Assembly (NCBI GenBank): GCA_028277465.1
Contig: JANQGF010000311.1
Location: 1-32,147, forward strand
Source: Chromatiaceae bacterium
GTDB lineage: Bacteria; Pseudomonadota; Gammaproteobacteria; Chromatiales; Chromatiaceae
Direction: 5' to 3'
DNA length: 32,147 bases
The first letter of the stretch is position 1. The number at the start of each line of letters is the position of its first letter. The translations under genes and the position numbers were made by a program. Below are positions 64 through 5,503 of this stretch, one piece after another. Below the pieces are notes generated by a model. That model was given only the letters and a program-made list of their open reading frames with translations. It was not told the origin of the DNA and searched no databases.

Positions 64-274
64 CAAATCGAGCGGCTGGGGTGCTGTTCCACGGTAACCG
101 CGCCTGGCACCTCGTTGCGTCGTCGAGCCAGGTCAGGCTGGCCTCGCCATGATGCCCCCGGAAGCTGACGTTGGGGTGAGCACGACCGTCGGCGGGTCCG
201 TCTCTTGGTAGAAGACGACCGTCAGGTCCATGTCGCCCCAGCGATAGTGGATTGGTGGGGGAGCCGTCAACCTA

Positions 275-570
275 AGAAGCGGCGATCGCCGCAAGGTCAT
301 GACCCTCTCCGGCGAAGAGCTGCGGCGGCGCTTCCTGCTGCATGTCCTACCCAAAGGCTTCATGCGCGTGAGGCACGTCGGCTTCCTGGCCAATCGTTGC
401 CGCGCCCGGCGCTTGCCGGAGATCCGCGCCGCCATCGTCGCGCCCACGGCCCGTCCAGCGAGCGAGAGGCACGAAGCGCCCACGCGGACCTTTGACGGCC
501 ATCCCTGTCCGAGCTGCCGCACCGGACGGTTGCGTGTGCGTGCCCGCGCTGGCTCCGAAGCGCCGCGAGG
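275..570 (+). pseudogene. IS91-type (Y2) transposase, C-terminal remnant
   Basis: The frame through the ATG at 299 encodes MTLSGEELRRRFLLHVLPKG, then a segment containing GFLANRCRARRLPEIRA, then a zinc-ribbon-like CPSCRTGRLRV. This is the usual C-terminal end of IS91-family transposases (HUH/Y2 rolling-circle type). The N-terminal catalytic region with the tyrosines and HUH motif is absent. An in-frame stop (TAG at 245-247) lies a short way upstream, so this is a decayed 3' fragment and not a working element. The frame stays open to 838, but nothing after about 570 looks like transposase. It sits at the left edge of the accessory region. Confidence 0.7.
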
Positions 571-888
571 GAGGATAACGCTCGCTCGTCCGCGTCGATG
601 CTGCTTCCGCCTCCTTTCTCAGGCCTCCTTTCTTAGGCCCGACAGGGAGTTTACGCTGGCGCTCGCCTCGCGCCGCGGAATTGGACTAACATACTCCTCA
701 ATACACGTCTTCGCAGTACCCTCGGAGCCCCTTCGATGCCTGGTTTCTGCCTCTGTGACGTTCCGCCCCCGCGATCTGCCGACACTGGTGCACCAGCGCC
801 CTCCGCGGCCAACCGATACAATTTTTCTCTCTATATAAAGGTGTGCCCGCGCCGTCGCGACCGGCGAGGTCGTGTCAGGGTCGGATTC
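571..888. other. Gene-poor stretch left of the first attC-like site
   Basis: No convincing gene is seen here. Frames on both strands are open for 80-100 codons, but none resembles a known family. The stretch ends in an AT-rich tract near 820-840 followed by GC-rich DNA. It could be the degraded end of the IS91 element or a cassette without a gene. Confidence 0.4.
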
Positions 889-982
889 GTCCAACAGGCA
901 TTTATCCATCGGGCGCTCGAATGTCACCGCGAGACCGTGCTTACTGCCATGCGCCCGATGGATAAATGCTTAATAGTTGGGC
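889..982 (+). other. attC-like integron recombination site 1
   Basis: The left core is GTCCAAC (889-895), which fits RYYYAAC. The right core is GTTGGGC (976-982), which fits GTTRRRY, and the two are complementary at 6 of 7 positions. Between them lie two perfectly complementary 19-base arms (898-916 and 951-969) with a 34-base loop. The total of 94 bp is within the usual attC range. The odd points are that the arms are perfect, without the extrahelical bases that normally set strand choice, and that the spacers are uneven (2 and 6 bases). A gene in the same orientation starts 20 bp after the right core, as expected in a cassette array. The alternative is an unrelated hairpin or MITE end. Confidence 0.6.
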
Positions 983-1001
983 GGTAACAAAAGGTGACGT
1001 A

Positions 1002-1159
1002 GTGAAGCCCAAGGTTTACGTCGAAACATCGGTGATCAGCTATTTGACGGCGCGACCGACGAATGATCTTCGAGCAATGGCCAACCAAACTGCTACAGTT
1101 GAATAGTGGGGGACCCGGCGCTCGAAATTTGTACATCAGATGAATCGACGGAGGCCTGA
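1002..1159 (+). pseudogene. VapC-type PIN-domain toxin, internally deleted
   Basis: A GTG at 1002, behind the possible ribosome site AAGGTG, opens a frame reading VKPKVYVETSVISYL and then TARPTNDLRAMANQ. This is the usual N-terminus of a PIN-domain VapC-family ribonuclease, with the first acidic residue in VETS. The frame stops at TAG 1104-1106 after 34 codons. In another frame, 1121-1159 reads LEICTSDESTEA and stop, which resembles the C-terminal ICTPEEL-type tail of the same family. The core with the remaining acidic residues (about 100 codons) is gone, so no active nuclease can be made. The small partner gene starts 3 bp after the tail. The N-terminal assignment is firm; the tail match is inferred from family memory. 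Confidence 0.65.
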
Positions 1160-1162
1160 AGT

Positions 1163-1378
1163 ATGTGGCAAGACCCCATTGTTGCTGAGACGCGTGCCCT
1201 AAGGGAAGAATACGCCGAGCAATTTGGCCATGATGCAGATGCTATTTTTCAGGATATTCTGCACAGACAAAATGTTCCGGGAAAAAAGCTAGTTACCTTT
1301 CCGGCACGGAAACCTATAGTCGAAAAAGTTCCCGCCCAACAAGGCGCCCCAGCCGACGCTCGTACCTCGCGCGGCTGA
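1163..1378 (+). CDS. Small antitoxin-like partner of the PIN toxin
   Basis: This 71-residue protein starts MWQDPIVAETRALREEYAEQ and continues FGHDADAIFQDILHRQ. That is the pattern of the small soluble proteins usually encoded directly after this type of PIN toxin and presumed to neutralise it. The start has a good ribosome site (GGAGG at 1150-1154, 8-base spacing). The last 15 or so residues are encoded by the attC-like site that follows, and the stop at 1376-1378 lies inside it, a common arrangement in gene cassettes. No DNA-binding domain can be seen. With its toxin destroyed it would be an orphan. Antitoxin function is inferred from gene order and resemblance. Confidence 0.6.
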   Translation: MWQDPIVAETRALREEYAEQFGHDADAIFQDILHRQNVPGKKLVTFPARKPIVEKVPAQQGAPADARTSRG

Positions 1379-1394
1379 AGCTTTGTCGTTGGCG
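1334..1394 (+). other. attC-like integron recombination site 2
   Basis: The left core is GCCCAAC (1334-1340) and the right core-like sequence is GTTGGCG (1388-1394). Between them are CAGCCG (1350-1355) and CGGCTG (1372-1377), with the pattern AGCCGACGC...GCGCGGCT typical of 60-bp attC sites from resistance cassettes. The first five bases of the right core pair with the left core. Its last two depart from GTTRRRY, so the site may be worn. It follows the small antitoxin-like gene in the same orientation. Confidence 0.6.
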
Positions 1395-1505
1395 GCAACA
1401 AGCAAAGACGCTGCCAGCCGCGGCAATGGATGCGCAAAACGCAAGACATGACCCTCGACTTTCGATCCAGCATGTGTCAACAACCAACCCATCAAGGAAT
1501 ATATC

Positions 1506-1898
1506 ATGAGAGTATTTATTGCCCCGGCCTTATTGTTACAGGTTTCTTTTGCTCCAGCTGCCGAATGGAACTGCAGGAATTATGACGCCGAAATATCTTG
1601 CACCACAGACACATGTGAAATATCCGCTCCGGACGAGTTTACGCCTCTGGATGCGTACTTCGATGACACTGGAAAAATGTCTGTGGGGATGTACTCCGGA
1701 GTCTGGGAGGGAGAAGGCACGGTTATAAACGAGCGAGACTTTGTGATCGTTGTTGGTAATGACCTTGTTTTCTCAACATCACCGGAGTCGAAATCAGACA
1801 TCTTCATCGCACTTGATACCAGAGACAAGGTTGCTGTGTTTAAAGACGCCAGTTACGCGATGCCTATGCGGTGCAAAAAAAGCAGAGGGAGTGAATAA
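1506..1898 (+). CDS. Exported 130-residue protein of unknown function
   Basis: The N-terminus MRVFIAPALLLQVSFAPAAE looks like a cleavable Sec signal peptide with an APA-A type site, so the mature protein of about 110 residues should be periplasmic. It keeps four cysteines (WNCRN, ISCTT, DTCEI, MRCKK), enough for two disulfides. The rest is polar and apparently beta-rich, including a segment IFIALDTRDKVAVFKDASYA. I have a sense of similar hypothetical proteins in other gammaproteobacteria but know no function. It lies 152 bp upstream of a leaderless peptidoglycan-active protein, with no attC-like site between them, so the two may share a cassette. A protective (immunity-like) role is conceivable but unproven. 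Confidence 0.65.
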   Translation: MRVFIAPALLLQVSFAPAAEWNCRNYDAEISCTTDTCEISAPDEFTPLDAYFDDTGKMSVGMYSGVWEGEGTVINERDFVIVVGNDLVFSTSPESKSDIFIALDTRDKVAVFKDASYAMPMRCKKSRGSE

Positions 1899-1922
1899 GC
1901 TTCACACCATCTGCAACAGAGC

Positions 1923-1944
1923 CGGAGGCCATATTTGGCCTCCG
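1923..1944 (+). terminator. Hairpin after the 130-residue gene
   Basis: CGGAGGCC (1923-1930) and GGCCTCCG (1937-1944) form a perfect 8-bp stem with a 6-base loop, 25 bp after the stop at 1898. No run of T follows, so it is a weak candidate for an intrinsic terminator. It could instead stabilise the upstream mRNA end. Confidence 0.35.
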
Positions 1945-2050
1945 CTATTGCTTCAGTCTTGGTACTGCGCGGGGGGGGAGGTGAAAAACGCCAGCCTTCT
2001 CTTCTGGAAGCTCCAGGCGCATTCGTCAACCACTTCAATAGGTGAAACAA

Positions 2051-3637
2051 ATGGAATACAGAGCCAACCTGCCCACACTTCTCAAGAAACAGCCCGTACA
2101 AGGCGAGGATCTCCCCGACGATCAGAAAAAGCCTGTTCTCGAAGGAACGATATACATCGTGAATGAGGTACTTGAATCCGATGGCCTCCATTCTCACGTT
2201 GAACTCGCGTCTGAAGCGGGCTCTTGGTGGATTTTCTTGCCTCACTGGGATGTTGAGCTGCAGGGGCAAGATCTAGCGGCTGCATTCTCGCTTCAACAAG
2301 ACAACTCCAGCACCCTTATCTATGGCTACTTAACATTTAATCGGGGCAATCAAGAGATTCTAAGAGTTCGGGCCACTTCTGGTCAACCCGGATTCCAGTA
2401 CCCTGGAGCTCACACTGTCAGGGGTAGAGGATGCATTCCCCCAGACAATGACTGGAGGATTTCCACCAGTGGTTACTACTCGTCGACTCGCGGTATCGAA
2501 GGCATCTTTTATCACATCACCCCGGATCCGGATCCAGACACTGGACGAAGTGAATTCGGACTCCACCGAGATTCCAACGTTGCAACTTCGCCAGGCTCTG
2601 CTGGTTGTATAGTCGTCAAAACCAGCGACTTTAACAACAGAATTCGACCGTTGCTGGATAGCTTGAGAGGGGTTCAACTCCACGTCCCTTTGACTGTTGT
2701 GTACAACCAAGCAACTGCTATTGCTGTAGCCTCAGAAGGCTCCGGCGCAAGTTACACTGTTGTACCTGGTGACACACTCTCCGGCATCGCAAGCAAACAA
2801 GGAGTTACGTTACAGAACTTGCTTAACGAAAATCCCGGCATCATTAATCCGGACCAAATTCAAGTTGGAGACATCATCAAAGTGCCTGGTTCGGGTGCGG
2901 GAGGGTCAAACACAACGGATACGGCAGGGTCAGGCACAAGTGTAGCTACATCGGGAGAGTCCAGTGTCACCTATACTATCGTACCTGGTGATACACTCTC
3001 CAGGATAGCAACCAGACACGGAGTTACCGTTGAGAGGGTGCTCAGCGCAAATCCGAACATAACCAATCCGAATCTGATTCACGTTGGTGACATGATCAAA
3101 ATTCCTCCGGCAGGTGGGCGAGAGTCTCCTGCTTCTGGAGAGTCAGGAGGCGCGGGCACGAATATGGAGACGATGGCTCTCGCCTTGGGAATTTGGACTG
3201 AAGCTCGCGACAATCCGAGTGCATCGGTTAGGCGTGAGGAAATGATACGTGTTGGCGGCGTGATCCTCAATCGAGCCCAAACTGGATATCGCGGTAAGTC
3301 CACGATCCTGGATACGGTACTCGATAGGTTCCAGTTTTCGCATTTCAACAGCTTGAACAATCCAGAGCGAGTTGCTTTGGGATCCGGGAGCGTACAGACT
3401 GTCAGCAATCGGATGGATGGTCGTCCCCGCTGGAATGAAGTGCTCGATATAGCCCGCCATCTCCTCTCGGGCGTAATTGCCAATCCTTGGAGCGGAATGA
3501 CAACTGTGCGCCACTATTACAGCCCGCGCTCGATGGTGCCGAGAGGTAGCGCTCCAAGCTGGGTTGTTCTCAGCAATGAGGTCGACGTGCCGAATATTCC
3601 CAATAACCGGTTCCGTTGGTACCGGGATATCGCATAG
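2051..3637 (+). CDS. Transpeptidase-like / LysM / SleB-like cell-wall protein
   Basis: This 528-residue protein has several wall-related parts. Residues about 90-205 resemble an L,D-transpeptidase-type fold with FGLHRD (His172) and PGSAGCIVV (Cys186), a candidate His/Cys pair. Two LysM repeats follow (about 234-279 and 306-352, each with VPGDTLS). Residues about 372-528 match the SleB/cell-wall hydrolase 2 family, with GIWTEARDN (candidate catalytic Glu384) and GGVILNRAQ. The first 80 residues are unassigned. There is no signal peptide or membrane segment, so export would need another route, lysis or a secretion apparatus. ATG 2051 is chosen because AGGTG lies 6 bases upstream; a GTG at 2042 lacks such a site. 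Composition is lower in GC than the core genes. Confidence 0.75.
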   Translation: MEYRANLPTLLKKQPVQGEDLPDDQKKPVLEGTIYIVNEVLESDGLHSHVELASEAGSWWIFLPHWDVELQGQDLAAAFSLQQDNSSTLIYGYLTFNRGNQEILRVRATSGQPGFQYPGAHTVRGRGCIPPDNDWRISTSGYYSSTRGIEGIFYHITPDPDPDTGRSEFGLHRDSNVATSPGSAGCIVVKTSDFNNRIRPLLDSLRGVQLHVPLTVVYNQATAIAVASEGSGASYTVVPGDTLSGIASKQGVTLQNLLNENPGIINPDQIQVGDIIKVPGSGAGGSNTTDTAGSGTSVATSGESSVTYTIVPGDTLSRIATRHGVTVERVLSANPNITNPNLIHVGDMIKIPPAGGRESPASGESGGAGTNMETMALALGIWTEARDNPSASVRREEMIRVGGVILNRAQTGYRGKSTILDTVLDRFQFSHFNSLNNPERVALGSGSVQTVSNRMDGRPRWNEVLDIARHLLSGVIANPWSGMTTVRHYYSPRSMVPRGSAPSWVVLSNEVDVPNIPNNRFRWYRDIA

Positions 3638-3664
3638 GGGAAAAAAGGTGCGGCTCATTAAATG

Positions 3665-3742
3665 CGCCAACAAGCGGATTACAGCTGACCGCCCAAAGCG
3701 CGGCCGCGCTTTGGGCGGTCAGCTGAACCTTGACGGTGGTCG
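3665..3742 (+). other. Degenerate attC-like site 3
   Basis: CGCCAAC (3665-3671) followed by AAGCGG and a long palindrome resembles the left half of an attC site. The sequence after the palindrome (ACCTTGACGGTGG) resembles a right half that has lost its GTTRRRY core. It lies after the LysM protein and before the lipase, where a cassette boundary would be expected. The call is weak without the neighbouring sites. Confidence 0.35.
3682..3725. repeat. Perfect 44-bp palindrome
   Basis: The 22 bases from 3682 (CAGCTGACCGCCCAAAGCGC then GG) are exactly mirrored on the other strand by 3704-3725, with no spacer; the centre CGGCCG is a site for rare-cutting GC enzymes. As RNA it would form a very strong hairpin 45 bp after the LysM gene stop, and could act as a terminator although no T run follows. 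As single-stranded DNA it could be the folded stem of attC-like site 3. Confidence 0.8.
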
Positions 3743-3792
3743 CGAGTCAACACCATCATTATACTCTATTCATTAAAGATCTGCGATTTTTA

Positions 3793-3798
3793 TATAAT
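3793..3798 (+). promoter_or_regulatory. Possible -10 element upstream of the lipase
   Basis: An exact TATAAT lies in an AT-rich stretch (3755-3805), about 140 bp upstream of the lipase start. A poor -35 candidate (TTCATT, 3769-3774) is 18 bases upstream. The stretch 3638-3936 holds no gene; besides the palindrome it has an imperfect stem pairing about 3843-3854 with 3873-3884. Confidence 0.25.
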
Positions 3799-3936
3799 CT
3801 AGAGCTTCAGCGAAAAAAGAATGACAGAGCAACCGCGGCTCTCGGGCCGGCTAGCCGCGGGAACCGCAGCGACTAGCTAGCCCGCATAAAAGTGCACTGA
3901 ACATTAGCCGAAGAACTCAGTTCTGGGAGGGTCGTA

Positions 3937-4782
3937 ATGACTAAACTAACAGACCAAATGCAGCTCAAGCCTTTAACGTCACGTTATGCGCCGGTGAACG
4001 CGTATTGGATGGCCAAATTTTCTAAGCTCGCCTACCGCAAGCGAGCAGATGGTTCGCCGGACGTTGAGGCTATTAAAACCGAGCTATACGGAATCGATAA
4101 GAAATTTTCCGAAGTGCAAGGCTTCGATGCCAAGAGTTCCGAAGGTATTGTCATAAAGCACGAGGACTTCGTTGTGGCAGCCTTTCGTGGAACGGATGAA
4201 ATTGCCGACTGGTTGGATAATTTGAATGCCGTGTCCCAATCTGGCCCACTAGGTGATGTACATACCGGGTTTTTTAAGGCTCTAATGGATATCTGGCCTC
4301 AAATGAAAATGGCTATTCGCTCCTTTCGTAGAACGTCAAGTGGGCTCCCTGATAGGCCTTTGTGGCTGACAGGGCATAGCCTTGGCGGTGCTTTGGCGAC
4401 ACTCGCAGTAGCAACGTTAATAGACGCGGATGAAACGTTTTATGGTGCATACACTTTTGGCAGCCCGCGTGTAGGAGACAGGGATTTTGCTCGGAACTTT
4501 AACTTAGAAGCGAAAGGCAAAGTTTTTAGATACCAAAATAACGCAGACATTGTAACTCGCGTTCCCGCGCGCCTCATGGGTTACAGCCATGTCGGATCGT
4601 TTGTCTATATTTCCGAGGATGGCATGCTGAGCACAGACATTGGCTGGTGGTATCGTTTCATGGATACCGTCAAAGGTGTAATTGCAGACATCGGAGAAAA
4701 GGGCTTAGATTCGATTAAGGATCACAGTATCGACGAATATATCGCAGGAATTTCCAATTATGGAGACAATAGTCCCGGTTGA
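3937..4782 (+). CDS. Class 3 lipase (alpha/beta hydrolase)
   Basis: This 281-residue protein belongs to the Lipase_3 family. It has the nucleophile elbow LTGHSLGGALATLAV (Ser148), then YTFGSPRVGD, the acid in QNNADIVTRVP (Asp204) and a candidate histidine at His263 in DHSIDEY. FRGTDEIADW supplies the oxyanion-hole-type segment. It should hydrolyse acylglycerol or phospholipid esters; the substrate is unknown. There is no signal peptide or lipobox, so it is cytoplasmic or exported by a non-Sec route. The start has a strong ribosome site (GGGAGG 3925-3930, 6-base spacing). Composition matches the preceding accessory genes. Leaderless class 3 lipases occur among phage, type VI and housekeeping proteins, so the role stays open. 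Confidence 0.85.
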   Translation: MTKLTDQMQLKPLTSRYAPVNAYWMAKFSKLAYRKRADGSPDVEAIKTELYGIDKKFSEVQGFDAKSSEGIVIKHEDFVVAAFRGTDEIADWLDNLNAVSQSGPLGDVHTGFFKALMDIWPQMKMAIRSFRRTSSGLPDRPLWLTGHSLGGALATLAVATLIDADETFYGAYTFGSPRVGDRDFARNFNLEAKGKVFRYQNNADIVTRVPARLMGYSHVGSFVYISEDGMLSTDIGWWYRFMDTVKGVIADIGEKGLDSIKDHSIDEYIAGISNYGDNSPG

Positions 4783-4803
4783 GAAGTTTGTCATTGTGGA
4801 TGA

Positions 4804-4878
4804 GACTGGTTGATCTTCCTCGAACTCACCGACGGAAGAATCGTCGGCTTTCCGGTGGACAGGTTCAAGATTCCTTGA
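4804..4878 (+). pseudogene. DUF2442-like fragment
   Basis: The frame reads DWLIFLELTDGRIVGFPVDR then FKIP and a stop at 4876-4878. The pattern LELTDGRxxxFPxDRF is characteristic of DUF2442 proteins, small proteins often found in toxin-antitoxin-like gene pairs. An in-frame stop lies immediately upstream and no start is available, so it is a remnant. It overlaps the 3' end of the oppositely directed DUF6599-like gene by 14 bp and marks the right edge of the accessory region. The assignment rests on one short motif. Confidence 0.45.
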
Positions 4879-5503
4879 CGAACCGGGTTCCAGTGACCGT
4901 CCCCAGGTCCGGAAAACGGAAGGCGAGGTCCTGTCCGTCGACTGTTTCGGCCAATCCCCGCGCCAGGTCGGCGCCGGCGGTCTCCGCGGACAGGCCGTCC
5001 CCGAACAGGCTCATCTGTACATAGTAGGGACCGAGGATGAAGCTCAGGCCCCGAAGGCTACGGAAGCCCATCGCGCCCACCTCAACCGATTGCTGGTCGC
5101 CGGCCTCGTCCACGAGGACGCCGAAGGCGTTCAGGGGTTTGCCCATGTCGTGCAGGTTCACCACCAGGGCCGGCTGGCCATCACCCGTATCCCCGTACTC
5201 GCCCACCAACAGGCCCCGGAAGCCGGCACCGATGAAGTACTCGGCATGGCCGTTGATGTACTCGTACAGAGTCTCCTCGTCGTAGCCGCGAACCTGGCCC
5301 GCGCGAGGCATCCCCGCGATGCTTTCCCCGAGCAAGGAGGCGTCCGGTCCGGCCGCGTTACCGCGCGGCGCAAACTCCACCAGGTCCGGATCATAACGCT
5401 GACCGTCGAGATAGATGGCCGCCGCGAGAATGGGCAGCAGGACCATCAAGCCCAGACGGACGGCGAAGGGTGAGGTCGGCGATTCGGGGAGTGGTTCGGC
5501 CAT
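4865..5503 (-). CDS. DUF6599-like membrane-anchored protein
   Basis: This 212-residue protein has one hydrophobic N-terminal segment (LGLMVLLPILAAAIYL) that should anchor it in the inner membrane, with the rest outside. The signature LYEYINGHAEYFIGAGFRGL resembles the YINGxAE motif of DUF6599 proteins. No catalytic function is known to me. The ATG at 5503 is preferred because AGGA lies 5 bases upstream; an ATG at 5521 has no such site. It follows the truncated aldo/keto reductase by 21 bp and probably shares its transcript. The gene ends where the low-GC accessory region begins, but the C-terminus looks complete. Confidence 0.6.
   Translation of the reverse strand: MAEPLPESPTSPFAVRLGLMVLLPILAAAIYLDGQRYDPDLVEFAPRGNAAGPDASLLGESIAGMPRAGQVRGYDEETLYEYINGHAEYFIGAGFRGLLVGEYGDTGDGQPALVVNLHDMGKPLNAFGVLVDEAGDQQSVEVGAMGFRSLRGLSFILGPYYVQMSLFGDGLSAETAGADLARGLAETVDGQDLAFRFPDLGTVTGTRFVKES

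Follow-up and report, generated by a model that had tools for sequence, protein, structure and literature searches.

Small clusters of attC sites that lack an integron integrase (CALINs) are common and ordinary, and their origin is seldom visible. The window analysed here, one entire contig (C112) of 32,147 nucleotides from a 4.31 Mb Chromatiaceae genome in 418 contigs, holds near its left end a run of genes that the initial annotation read as a remnant cassette array with three attC-like sites and without its integrase. The NifS-type protein encoded on the contig is nearest to those of Thiohalocapsa and other Chromatiaceae, which points to a purple sulphur bacterium or a close relative as host. 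The locus raises the question of whether these genes are integron cassettes and what forms the upstream limit of the array. We present evidence that the window probably carries, with a probability of roughly 0.85, a two-cassette chromosomal integron remnant (a CALIN) whose upstream side appears to have given way to the terminus of a mobile element. One boundary of this CALIN is a transposon end lying exactly on a cassette core, and an IS91-type element that targets integrons is the less expected part of the locus.

Results

attC sites and cassette boundaries

The search for attC sites relied on two covariance models. The training set of the first comprised 20 sites, drawn from class 1 integrons and same-family chromosomal integrons and excluding those of the window; 112 matches to it served to build the second. 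Both models place site 2 at the top of the whole genome (43.9 bits, E 2.7e-6; 40.4 bits, E 1.6e-5), with a clear strand polarity of 40.4 bits on the plus strand versus 9.6 bits on the minus strand. The site possesses R and L boxes, spacers and an extrahelical base, and as judged from score and anatomy it is a genuine attC. Within the window, site 3 ranks next after site 2, at 18.6 bits (E 0.021) with the first model and 18.8 bits (E 0.016) with the second, a weak score when taken alone. It contains a 44-nt perfect palindrome (3682-3725) and has 20 of 23 bases in common with an attC on another contig of the genome, C340, a likeness equalled by none of 1000 shuffles. Nothing in Rfam exceeded its gathering score at the sites, and a blastn search of plasmids with site 2 returned chance matches only.

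The R boxes that pair in an integron stand at opposite ends of a cassette rather than of a site. Among relatives, complementarity is complete (7/7) across 84% of cassettes (n=43), versus 21% of box pairs taken from one site and 16% of unrelated pairs. In the window, GTTGGGC (976-982) is complementary at 7/7 positions to GCCCAAC (1334-1340), and GTTGGCG to CGCCAAC likewise across the second cassette (Table 1); the two R boxes of site 2 match each other at only 5/7. These cross-cassette matches support site 3, which on this evidence is a weak, worn attC, and they fix the cassette limits at 977-1388 and at 1389 to about 3735. Two attC sites therefore lie close together, a CALIN having at least two, one of them strong (1334-1394) and one weak by model (3665-3741).

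Could sites 2 and 3 instead be chance hairpins or terminators? The folding of site 2 by itself is only moderately above that of shuffled sequences (z about -1.6) and the perfect palindrome of site 3 is terminator-like, yet the model scores, the 7/7 boxes over both cassettes and the conservation of the cassette in relatives make such an origin exceedingly improbable. For site 2 it is refuted by homologous cassettes; for site 3 it keeps a slight probability.

Table 1. Features of the cassette region and its upstream boundary (window coordinates)
Feature	Position	Strand	Remarks
Transposase C-terminus	269-544	+	76.6% identity to L189 transposase; Y2_Tnp 3.5e-11
Right-hand 0.7 kb of the element	about 280-975	+	79.8% identity over 708 bp to L189 element
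Right terminus of the element (site 1)	889-975	+	subterminal CCAAC repeat and 20-bp hairpin; multicopy unit in relatives
R' core GTTGGGC, start of cassette 1	976-982	+	strand exchange point after G at 976
Broken PIN toxin gene	1002-1162	+	first 34 codons, in-frame TAG, internal deletion, C-terminus remnant
Antitoxin gene	1163-1378	+	frame intact; last codons and stop (1376-1378) within site 2 attC
Site 2, attC of cassette 1	1334-1394	+	top genome score; 44/46 bases in common with same-cassette attC of L089
Cassette 2	1389-3735 (end approximate)	+	R' 1388-1394 and R'' 3665-3671 complementary 7/7
130-aa protein	1506-1898	+	signal-peptide-like start
531-aa LysM protein	2042-3637	+	two LysM domains 4.2e-31; weak C-terminal Hydrolase_2 match (0.0014, under its cut-off)
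Site 3, worn attC of cassette 2	3665-3741	+	R' core reads GGTGGTC; 18.6-18.8 bits
Lipase (class 3)	3937-4782	+	Lipase_3 1.4e-26; downstream of site 3

Contents of the cassettes

Several features of the region named in the initial annotation were borne out. Every gene between 1002 and 4782 is on the plus strand, GC content falls to 0.50-0.53 against 0.62-0.70 around, the antitoxin stop codon lies inside site 2, and the toxin-antitoxin debris is real, consisting of a broken PIN toxin gene ahead of its antitoxin. The toxin remnant is 67-86% identical to intact PIN proteins of 157-174 aa that adjoin the same antitoxin elsewhere. Of 204 genomes searched in the order, 46 encode relatives of the antitoxin. 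Several of these show the PIN gene, then the antitoxin, then an attC overlapping the antitoxin end, and in two loci (L089, L094) GTTGGGC precedes the PIN start by about 20 nt, the spacing found in the window. The first cassette is thus like the PIN/antitoxin cassette of Chromatiaceae integrons (L088, L089, L094) in gene order, R' position and an attC that encodes the antitoxin end, but differs in that its toxin gene is broken.

Within the second cassette, the 130-aa protein has no match in Pfam or NCBIfam and has distant homologues on rhizobial plasmids. The LysM protein, whose C-terminus weakly matches a cell-wall hydrolase, has zero homologues above threshold in 210 genomes of the order. An effector-immunity pair, in which the 130-aa protein would guard against the LysM protein, was considered but is not supported: the Tlde1 match reaches only E 0.1, and no cell-wall hydrolase is annotated beside a rhizobial homologue of the smaller protein. 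No attC closing off the downstream lipase gene was found. Beyond it, a short frame at 4813-4878 ending in FLELTDGRIVGFPVDRFKIP resembles by eye the end of a DUF2442 protein; its 4813-4875 stretch has no Pfam match.

Site 1 and the IS91-type element

Site 1 (889-982) was the leading evidence for the array in the initial annotation. The 94-nt inverted repeat with cores GTCCAAC and GTTGGGC is indeed present and folds well beyond shuffled sequences (z about -6), but neither attC model matches it at E<=10 with filters off. It departs from the model in having no left spacer, no L boxes, a perfect 20-bp stem and no extrahelical base. Its relatives likewise speak against an attC. Full-length matches to the unit (about 80-86% identity) all end at one base, as in GATAAATGCTTAATA immediately before GTTR, and the sequences diverge beyond; upstream of the unit, most copies stay alike for about 2.4 kb. 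An attI was also rejected, since the attI of the same family, defined beside intI, has a different sequence. From these alignments, site 1 is identified as the right (3') end of an IS91-type element of about 2.5 kb rather than as an attC.

The element carries genes for a tyrosine recombinase of 294 aa and for a transposase of the IS91 type (Y2_Tnp, Zn_Tnp_IS91); in the L189 copy these two domains score 8.6e-57 and 4e-26, respectively, the combination of HUH Y2 and zinc-binding domains that characterizes IS91. IS91 ends are hairpins beside a short fixed target that is not duplicated, and the hairpin terminus here fits that description, with GTTA or GTTG behind it at 26 of the 32 ends. IS91 itself is reported to use GTTC or CTTG, its target differing in the fourth base from the GTTA or GTTG seen here, and ISfinder lists IS91-family elements that have an additional gene for a tyrosine recombinase. 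One genome holds a pair of copies with 99.76% identity across 2521 bp, and another genome (G172) contains 13 dispersed copies that are 96.5-100% identical, which indicates that the element was recently mobile. At the left end stands GTTGAACTAATCCG, of which the right end bears a near-perfect inverted repeat, CGGATTAGTCCAAC. A short 399-bp version (L056:1941-2339) has altered but matching ends, GTTGAACTAAACCG and CGGTTTAGTCCAAC, indicating that left and right ends changed together. A diverged element of the same layout is present on C396 of the host genome.

Target sites of the element

A search of 204 genomes of the order for the left end, using a pattern without GTTG, found 48 left ends in 21 genomes, versus 0 in the reversed control. 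Seven of the 48 adjoin an attC, five an attI and five a probable second type of attI. With the model run without filters on fetched flanks, the attC lies exactly at the left end in six copies (L198, L249, L252, L254, L259, L263), in an identical register in the five compared for it (L249 to L263); in a further locus an attC (L191:551-611) touches another left end. A motif found where the first cassette begins next to intI, and for that reason taken to be attI, adjoins the left end in L194, L196, L197 and L265, and in degenerate form in L189. A second motif, CTAGAACAC followed by GTT, adjoins it in L244, L248, L250, L253 and L255; among these copies only L255 is known to lie near intI (533 bp), and the motif is probably a second attI type.

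On the other side, GTTA or GTTG, the GTTR of a cassette core, comes next after 26 of the 32 right ends, and the right flank begins a cassette: comparison of its opening heptamer with the R'' box of the next attC gave 7/7 matches in 5 of 11 cases and 6/7 in 4 of 11. A simple stem score places the end of an attC-like site at 10 of 40 left ends, versus 23 of 627 control GTTR positions. Many copies, including most of the 13 in G172, adjoin no recognised attC or attI, so that GTTR, and not a folded attC, may suffice as the target.

An alternative reading treats the element as a gene cassette in its own right, with site 1 a highly divergent attC moved by IntI or by the element's own tyrosine recombinase. 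The element starts G/TTGAAC and ends AATAG/TTRRRY in cassette-like fashion, its left end and CCAAC repeat are complementary at 6/7 positions (7/7 in G069), and the circle junction is predicted to fold as an attC-like double stem; furthermore, an attC beside ISCR28 has been interpreted likewise (PMC12772301). Against this stand the failure of both attC models at site 1, the missing left spacer, L boxes and extrahelical base, the IS91-type transposase, and the 13 near-identical copies dispersed in G172, mostly with no recognisable attC adjoining. A cassette identity is accordingly unlikely, if still to be reckoned with. We favour a putative transposon over a self-carrying cassette, because the end fails the attC model and the dispersed copies multiply.

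Integrases and attC sites elsewhere in the genome

As the initial annotation had stated, no intI is present on the 32 kb contig, which on the left reaches only 889 bp beyond cassette 1. The two integrases in the genome that exceed the family cut-off each lie on another contig. One, on C178, is intact (361 bits versus the TIGR02249 cut-off of 265) and about 42.5% identical to IntI1; its neighbours, with names read off the sequence, are mnmE, yidC, rnpA, rpmH, dnaA, dnaN and recF. The other, on C132, is broken by an in-frame TAG and lacks its N-terminus (L009, 1026-1922); a GTTGGGC core stands a little upstream of it. Across the region and the genome, therefore, the covariance models match two of the three sites, and intI genes and an attC array occur elsewhere; the total absence of both, which would have spoken against a cassette remnant, was not observed.

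That second array, on C340, lies at a contig end and includes a SIR2-like gene and a response-regulator gene. The SIR2-like protein (L076, 798-1943; PF13289 2.4e-18, weak Dsr1 match) is encoded between attC sites, and its gene is possibly a defence cassette. At 2510-2740 of the same locus, a unit of about 130 bp with inverted ends of about 20 bp (CCTTGATCATCGTTTGGTCC) and CTGAAGAG on either flank splits an attC, and from this structure is classed as a MITE-like insertion within the attC. On C105 (L077, 3626-4234), a degenerate attC that has 30 of 34 bases in common with site 2 adjoins a DUF4926 gene, and right after the attC core begins a group II intron (RF02005, 54.2 bits) in cassette orientation. 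A lone attC-like site on C87 (L078, 2531-2634; 26.7 bits) has helicase-like and outer-membrane-protein-like genes, named by eye, on either side. The window itself begins with a repeat of about 98 bp (1-98), with about 40 genome copies among the matches listed at 97-100% identity, many at contig ends; this repeat probably breaks the assembly.

These contig ends bear on a further alternative, in which the assembly has split a complete integron, the window being its distal portion and the intact enzyme on C178 its integrase. That contig stops 135 bp past the intI match, on the attI side, and the window starts in the repeat whose copies, among the matches listed, lie mostly at contig ends. However, cassette 1 lies about 900 bp in from the contig end, behind repeat and element remnant, and C178 could be joined at least as well to C340, whose array reaches a contig end. 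A complete integron is thus quite improbable.

Discussion

The reading of the window as a CALIN is supported by the attC matches, the R boxes of the cassettes, the related cassettes of other genomes, and the intI genes and attC array elsewhere in the same genome. The initial annotation of a cassette array without a local integrase stands in this form, upheld by sites 2 and 3, R boxes and relatives, but its lead site is the end of an IS91-type element. That end is recognised as the common terminus of a multicopy element, the left ends of which adjoin attI and, in an identical register, attC. Three points weigh against the overall interpretation: site 3 alone is a weak match, many copies of the element adjoin no recognised attC or attI, and the lipase gene has no right-side boundary.

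We infer that an integron integrase once inserted both cassettes, that the element landed on the GTT core ahead of the PIN cassette, replacing an attC or attI there, and that it afterwards lost its left 1.8 kb. The array has been reduced to a strong attC (site 2), a worn one (site 3) and an R' half-site at 976-982. With no attC ahead of cassette 1 and with site 3 damaged, the array is largely frozen; site 2 might still recombine in trans through the intact IntI on C178. By analogy with IS91, the element probably moves by its HUH transposase through rolling-circle transfer of one strand, which would begin at the hairpin end adjoining the GTTR target. More tentatively, and at somewhat less than even odds, we propose that IS91-type transposons with their own tyrosine recombinase prefer attI and attC core targets, have covarying ends and an attC-mimicking circle junction, and so invade and break up arrays independently of IntI. 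The transposon end lying on a cassette core in the window suggests a route by which an element targeting attI or attC can part cassettes from their integrase. An attC beside IS91-like elements has been noticed in two recent papers, the cause being unsettled, and the copies and target sites described here make the question testable. The defined ends, the copies in several genera and the attI insertions go beyond the literature that we found, with subscription papers outside the search.

Like other CALINs, the window has attC cassettes in a single orientation, low GC, toxin-antitoxin genes and no intI within its 32 kb; it differs in being very short, with one strong and one weak attC, and in having an IS91-type element's terminus as its upstream limit. 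In a Shewanella integron, the IS91-like element ISShvi3 adjoins an attC and was described as giving rise to a new gene cassette structure (PMC9229058). It is a single case, whereas the element here, compared with it by description only, has defined ends, many copies, attI insertions and a tyrosine recombinase gene. ISCR28, which is IS91-related, has an attC at or directly after its end (PMC12772301). That attC is predicted at the element's own end, whereas the models recognise no attC in the end of the present element, and its attC or attI neighbours lie outside the left end. Finally, IS1111-attC elements and group IIC-attC introns target attC (as cited in PMC9229058, PMC7923331); they do so with unrelated enzymes, an IS110-family transposase and an intron ribozyme, in contrast to the HUH transposase and tyrosine recombinase of the element described here.
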